A stretch of DNA of 64,000 nt from Actinophytocola sp. Its GTDB lineage: Bacteria; Actinomycetota; Actinomycetes; Mycobacteriales; Pseudonocardiaceae. Both the position numbers and the translations under genes were made by a program. The stretch lies in NCBI RefSeq assembly GCF_009379765.1, contig NZ_WHTD01000004.1, positions 41,097-105,096 on the forward strand, read 5' to 3'. Below, piece by piece: positions 53,318 through 54,300 of the stretch (the first letter of the stretch is position 1; the number at the start of each line of letters is the position of its first letter). Under the pieces are notes generated by a model, which was not told the DNA's origin, searched no databases, and saw only the letters and a program-made list of their open reading frames with translations.

Positions 53318-53357
53318 TTCTGTATCCTGGGTCGGTTTGTCGAGACGGGAGAGGGCC

Positions 53358-54191
53358 TTGCTGACCCAGTTAGGGCGTGTCTCGTGGGTCTTGGTCGATG
53401 GGATTCGTGATCCAGATGTCTCCTGGCAAGGCGGCGGAAGGTCGCGCATACCGGGTTGTATTCGGGCCTTTCGACAACGCGGCCAGGGGGCAGCTGGGCG
53501 CGAATACCACGATCCAAGATCCGCGAGACATGGCCTAGTCCGTTATGTCCTGGCGCCGCTGGCGCGGCTCGGCTACCGGCCGCGCGTGGAGGGCTTGTCG
53601 AACGTGCCCGCGTCGGGCCCGGTGATCATCGCGGCCAACCACCGCGCGGTCCTCGACACGGCGGTGATCTCGCTGGTGGTCCGCCGGCAGGTCCGCTTCC
53701 TGGGCAAGGCGGAGTACTTCACCGGTCGCGGCTTGCGCGGCCGGCTGATGGCGGCGTTCGTCGACGCGCTCGGCTTCGTCCCGGTGGAGCGCGGCAACGC
53801 CCACGCCGGCCTCGCCGCGCTGAACGCCGGCCAGAACGCGCTGAACGCGGGTGGCGTGTTCGCGATCTACCCAGAGGGCACCCGGTCGCGCGACGGCCGG
53901 CTCCACCGGGGCCACACGGGCGTGGCGGTGCTCGCGCTGACGACCGGTGCCCCGGTGGTGCCGGTGGCCTTGTTCGGCACGGAGAAGCTGATGCCCCGCG
54001 GTGGCAAGATCCCGCGGCCGGCCAGGGTGGCGGTGCGGTTCGGCGAGCCCTTGGACTTCACCGCGGTGACCGAGCGCAACCTGCGCGCCCGCCGCGCGGT
54101 CACCGACGAGGTGATGGCCGCGATCCGCGAGCTGTCCCAGCAGGAGTACGTGAACACCTACCACCGCCGCCCGGACGAGAACATCGCCTGA
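53358..54191 (+). CDS. PlsC-like 1-acylglycerol-3-phosphate acyltransferase with in-frame MITE insertion near its N-terminus
   Basis: VIIAANHRAVLDTAVISLV; YPEGTRSRDGRLHRG; TTG start with GGGAGAGGG upstream; frame open through the insertion. Confidence 0.85.
   Translation: MLTQLGRVSWVLVDGIRDPDVSWQGGGRSRIPGCIRAFRQRGQGAAGREYHDPRSARHGLVRYVLAPLARLGYRPRVEGLSNVPASGPVIIAANHRAVLDTAVISLVVRRQVRFLGKAEYFTGRGLRGRLMAAFVDALGFVPVERGNAHAGLAALNAGQNALNAGGVFAIYPEGTRSRDGRLHRGHTGVAVLALTTGAPVVPVALFGTEKLMPRGGKIPRPARVAVRFGEPLDFTAVTERNLRARRAVTDEVMAAIRELSQQEYVNTYHRRPDENIA
53370..53537. mobile_element. MITE-like element with imperfect terminal inverted repeats
   Basis: TTAGGGCGTGTCTCG ... CGAGACATGGCCTAG (12/15 arm match); repeated TAG at the ends; internal GTATTCG...CGAATAC arms. 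Confidence 0.75.
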
Positions 54192-54202
54192 CCCACCCAG
54201 AA

Positions 54203-54300
54203 CCCGCGAGTCCAACACCCAGAACCCGCGAGTCCAACGTTCGGGACCCGCGAGTCCAACGTTCGCGGGTCGGGAACGAGGGACTCGCGGGTCGGGTGCG
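54203..54300. repeat. Four-copy intergenic repeat cluster, CCCGCGAGTCCAACRTTCG family
   Basis: GCGAGTCCAACACCC, GCGAGTCCAACGTTCGGG, GCGAGTCCAACGTTCGCGG, inverted GGACTCGCGGGTC. Confidence 0.85.

Follow-up and report, generated by a model that had tools for sequence, protein, structure and literature searches.

An in-frame MITE near the start of a plsC-like gene in Actinophytocola sp., and the stop-codon bias of its genomic copies

The window, a stretch of 64,000 nucleotides from contig NZ_WHTD01000004.1 of Actinophytocola sp. (GCF_009379765.1; a draft assembly of 284 contigs with a contamination estimate of 5.8%), contains an acyltransferase gene interrupted in frame by a repeated element (Table 1). 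The open reading frame starts with TTG CTG ACC CAG TTA, runs through 165 bp without a single stop codon and resumes with GTC CGT TAT GTC CTG, exactly as the first-pass annotation had read it. The encoded protein matches PF01553 (94.2 bits; cut-off 23), and the catalytic motifs HX4D (H95, D100) and PEGTRS (P172–S177) are intact and invariant. Since the TIGR00530 score of 70.8 bits falls below the curated cut-off of 102.95, we refer to the protein as PlsC-like; seven matches of this kind are present in the genome, six of them elsewhere. Short direct repeats (acccgcgagtccaac...) lie directly after the plsC stop codon, at window positions 54195-54290.

Table 1 Coordinates of the plsC-like gene, the inserted element and their features in the window.
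Feature	Position	Strand	Basis or remark
plsC-like acyltransferase gene with insertion	53358..54191	+	277 aa; 222 aa without the insert
55 inserted codons (GRVSWVLVDG...SARHGL) after plsC codon 5	53373..53537	+	sequence; frame used in plsC ('+2') open in 40/41 parsed copies
Shine-Dalgarno-like GGGAGAGGG upstream of the native TTG	53347..53355	+	GGGAGA, at the same place, in genus orthologues
MITE, 163 bp, GGGCGTGTCTCG...CGAGACATGGCC	53373..53535	+	~43 near full-length genome copies; 163 bp in 37/41
Left terminal inverted repeat GGGCGTGTCTCGTGG	53373..53387	+	12/15 match to the right end
Right terminal inverted repeat GGCCATGTCTCGCGG, as read on the minus strand	53521..53535	-	
TA target duplication, left copy	53371..53372	.	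YTA, element, TAR in most other copies; A. xinjiangensis empty site CAGTTAGTCCG with one TA
TA target duplication, right copy	53536..53537	.	as for the left copy

Alignment of the copies found in the genome defined sharp element ends, GGKCGTGTCTCG...CGAGACATGGCC, and the exact length of 163 bp recurs in 37 of the 41 copies that were parsed. Most other copies have YTA on their left and TAR on their right, so the duplicated sequence is the TA inside a YTAR target. The first-pass annotation had treated the whole 165 bp as the element, and the flanking TTAG and CTAG as copies of a 4-bp target differing by one base. The spacing between the two plsC codons and the fit to YTAR stand, but the element proper is 163 bp, the duplication is the 2-bp TA, and the two flanks are unequal because the element itself contributes the G that follows the left TA and the C that precedes the right TA. 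The element plus one TA amounts to 165 bp, or 55 codons, so the insertion causes no frame shift; the number of added codons was thus correct, whereas their position is after codon 5 and not in front of the gene, as had been proposed. The imperfect terminal inverted repeats (12 of 15 positions) were borne out, and the arms extend to 37 nt with 76% complementarity. When the element strand was folded as DNA, a z-score of -8.6 was obtained, and none of the shuffled sequences folded equally well. The element is short and carries no transposase gene, its translated segment has no NCBIfam match, and an Rfam search with the element returned no match. These features, with the target duplication, the empty site and the many dispersed near-identical copies, confirm the window element as a non-autonomous MITE-type element with imperfect terminal inverted repeats.

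The search for further copies, suggested when the insertion was first called MITE-like, yielded 48 matches in the genome, of which ~43 are near full length (~45 copies). They are spread over many contigs and mostly 92–98% identical; the plsC copy is 98% identical to its nearest sister copy. Besides the frame used in plsC, the minus strand offers two usable frames, open in 36 and 29 of the 41 parsed copies, and a second stop-free in-frame case was found at L021 (G000:C4:13341-13507), where a copy in the opposite orientation follows residue 86 of a small membrane protein. The homologues of that protein in the genus (33–45% identity) lack the insert.

The plsC locus was compared with its counterparts in the genus and beyond. 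The nearest named relatives, A. xinjiangensis and A. xanthii (84% and 81% identical over PlsC, respectively), both lack the insert. The A. xinjiangensis gene begins GTG CTG CAC CAG TTA GTC CGA TAT GTC (G003/L032/L108), an empty site in which CAG TTA is followed immediately by GTC. Unoccupied sites are also seen in another member of the genus (G001; GTG TTG CAC CAG TTG GTC CGT TAT GTC) and in A. xanthii (GTG TTA CAC CAC CTG GTC CGC TAT GTT), and the TetR-like gene downstream of plsC is kept in A. xinjiangensis with 70% identity. The 55-aa segment is absent from all 80 orthologous loci, from the order and beyond, and the conserved start in these orthologues mostly precedes the junction by 4–6 codons, with single instances of 7 and 10. 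Two of the three outcomes named beforehand as refuting the first-pass interpretation, a lack of further copies and orthologues sharing the 55 aa, were thus looked for, and both results favour it. Judged from the empty sites and the orthologues without the segment, the insertion into plsC is derived and apparently recent.

We regard it as probable that a MITE mobilised in trans entered plsC, kept the frame and gave rise to a read-through product. A short non-autonomous DNA transposon would recently have jumped into the TTAG spanning codons 5 and 6, moved by a transposase of the IS5 type that cleaves YTAR targets and leaves a TA duplication. With a stop-free frame across the element and its TA, the gene remains a single open frame; translation most likely starts at the original TTG, served by the original Shine-Dalgarno site, and continues through the element. 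The resulting acyltransferase would be 277 aa long and carry an arginine-rich, probably disordered stretch of 55 residues ahead of the first helix. As for the partner, matches to PF13340, PF01609 and PF13359 were scanned for the element ends, and the draft assembly yielded no intact transposase flanked by such ends. The sole fitting candidate is a degraded DUF4096 relic on contig C115, whose first 11 bp match. Searches with end patterns retrieved solo ends and internally different variants, with no full insertion sequence among them.

The native start and its Shine-Dalgarno site are upstream of the element, intact and similar to those of the sister species, and no good alternative start was found in the sequence just downstream of the element. 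From these features, we predict with moderate confidence that translation crosses the element. In an AlphaFold run on the read-through protein and 34 orthologues, pLDDT values were ~70–97 over the core (residues 61 to 270) and fell below 50 in residues 1–51, and the first predicted helix (residues 54–73) follows the new segment. The inserted segment is accordingly modelled as a loose, disordered tail before the first helix with the acyltransferase core kept, and we infer that enzyme activity is retained. The plsC copy may have survived because the insertion does not shift the frame and adds its tail away from the catalytic core, and the six further acyltransferase matches in the genome may add redundancy. 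Decay may not yet have had time to show, so the intact frame by itself is no proof of function.

A different outcome is suggested by the RNA. The element RNA is predicted to fold into a strong hairpin from ~13 nt after the start codon, and the predicted accessibility of the start codon is lower with the element in short folding windows. A hairpin so close to the start might block initiation or act as a terminator, in which case the insertion would be a knock-down or knock-out, the open frame a matter of luck and the gene in decay; the loss may be tolerated in a genome with seven PlsC-like matches, and the recent appearance of the copy, with its 98% identity to a sister, would be in line with this. 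We nevertheless consider it unlikely, since the frame and the catalytic motifs are intact, the accessibility is equal in a longer, 342-nt fold, and elongating ribosomes unwind hairpins. Still less probable is a restart of translation within or after the element, at the in-frame TTG in GTC TTG GTC or at the GTG at 53586, which precedes the HX4D motif; the extension would then be shorter or absent. Neither codon is preceded by a good Shine-Dalgarno site, the upstream site and start are intact, and a start at 53586 would drop the first helix, which is conserved in the orthologues. Finally, the idea that the acyltransferase has long possessed these residues as a conserved part, with no insertion at all, has only the open frame in its favour and is refuted by the multicopy nature of the element, the empty sites within the genus and the lack of the segment in all 80 orthologues examined.

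A position inside a gene, as in plsC, is the exception for this element, which usually lies on gene ends. To classify the landing sites, we used our own codon-usage gene caller after each copy had been replaced by a single TA between its flanks, and took as background 501 unoccupied YTAR sites in ~1.4 Mb of the same genome. In this post hoc analysis, designed after the data had been seen and based on a home-made gene caller, 21 of the 36 distinct sites (G000, loci L001-L030 and L090-L100) were exactly on a stop codon, compared with 101 of the 501 background sites (20%; odds ratio 5.5, p = 2e-6). Ten of the 36 sites fall where the stops of two convergent genes overlap, compared with 9 of 501 (1.8%; odds ratio 21, p = 3e-8). 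Insertions inside coding sequence were fewer than in the background (3/36 versus 84/501; not significant), and the clean, open in-frame insertions are two, those in plsC and in the membrane protein gene; no site was between divergent genes, where 146 of the background sites are found. Stricter gene calling gave the same stop-codon picture, and two copies of this genome that carry a 1-bp indel (L090 and L098) are also on stop codons. Occupied sites are richer in GC; GC content was rejected as the cause of the stop excess, which persisted after matching (double-stop odds ratio 13–14).

The element sequence offers a reason why insertions at such sites could do little harm. At a gene end, the left TA and the first G of the element rebuild TAG, and its last C and the right TA rebuild TAG on the other strand, so that both genes keep a stop codon and gene-end insertions cost the flanking genes little. 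An empty CTAG overlap joins the genes of one homologous pair elsewhere in the genus (L409, G003), and the other homologous gene pairs have no such overlap. Part of the stop bias arises because YTAR is rare in GC-rich coding sequence and contains TAG, and because insertions into promoters and genes are selected against. The excess of double over single stops (10:11 versus 9:92) is accounted for neither by the rarity of YTAR and its TAG content nor by selection.

The bias is not peculiar to the Actinophytocola strain, since among 43 copies in 13 further genomes of this order, taken as best matches and not as a random sample, 25 are on stop codons, six of these on double stops. Four relatives' copies scored as inside a gene were read by eye, and none is a clean in-frame fusion. 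Relatives were found by whole-element similarity, which can favour a shared core: between genomes, a common core (element positions ~49–127) has a mean pairwise identity of 70% and the ends agree at only 48–53%. MITE ends are expected to be the conserved part. The terminal repeats of the relatives include GGCCGTGTCTTATG, GGGCGCGTTTGGTG and GTGCCGYGTCC, and this pattern would be explained if ends had been swapped to match different transposases. Related MITEs with the same inner core and different terminal repeats occur in many genomes of the order (loci L062-L088 and L362-L390).

These observations lead us to propose, tentatively and as a conjecture that we think somewhat more apt to fail than to hold, a MITE superfamily spread across the order, its core conserved and its ends exchangeable, that prefers stop codons, above all the 4-bp YTAR overlap of convergent genes. 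Each insertion there would rebuild both stops and leave a hairpin, and the preference might come from the transposase or the local DNA state, or from the usefulness of a two-way terminator. In the literature searched, mostly papers outside subscription, we came across no account of a MITE family residing on stop codons. The wider pattern illustrates how 45 copies of a transposon can accumulate in a gene-dense, GC-rich genome: the target holds a stop codon, the first base of the element completes it anew, and the element together with its duplication spans a whole number of codons, which reduces two usual costs of insertion. If the convergent-stop excess reflects targeting, it would offer new insight into site choice by IS5-type transposases. 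The plsC copy is for its part a clean natural experiment, with one element, an empty site in a sister species and 55 residues gained in one step.

We compared the element with three published descriptions of related systems. Rickettsia palindromic elements (RPEs) are palindromic repeats of ~150 bp found in frame within protein genes (PMC10969869), and the Actinophytocola element resembles them as a palindromic repeat in frame inside a protein gene. RPEs enter genes often, whereas the present element mostly avoids coding sequence, with three of 36 sites there and two of these in frame and open. The Coxiella elements QMITE1 and QMITE2 are similar to it in size and copy number, and QMITE2 is mainly in 3' untranslated and intergenic regions, with some in-frame extensions such as that of enhC (PMC5896051). 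The QMITE duplications vary in sequence and are 2–3 or 7–11 nt long, in contrast to the TA in a YTAR target, often on the stop codon itself, described here. In-frame MITE fusions are thus already known from RPEs and QMITEs, and by analogy the plsC fusion by itself is of that sort. The IS5 family targets PyTAPu, most often CTAG (PMC5493358), which matches the YTAR at most sites of the Actinophytocola element; IS5 itself duplicates 4 bp, whereas our element duplicates the 2-bp TA and encodes no transposase. A degraded DUF4096 insertion sequence in the same genome shares the end CTAGGGCGTGTCTC with the element.

Some copies depart from the common arrangement. Two or three elements in a row, head to tail, form tandem arrays in which neighbouring units share one TA or a single base, at G000:C138:1-407, C206:57058-57393, C74:14185-14515 and C237:1-200. 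CA replaces TA on the left in copies L007, L021, L091, L018, L028, L092 and L015, and the right side of these copies is TA except in L015, a tandem copy. The left flank CATATCA is common to three of them, and in L091 it agrees with the sequence flanking an insertion-sequence end in L327. Two equally oriented copies (G000:C146:61114 and 62365) enclose an aminotransferase-like gene, one just before its start and the other on its stop codon.
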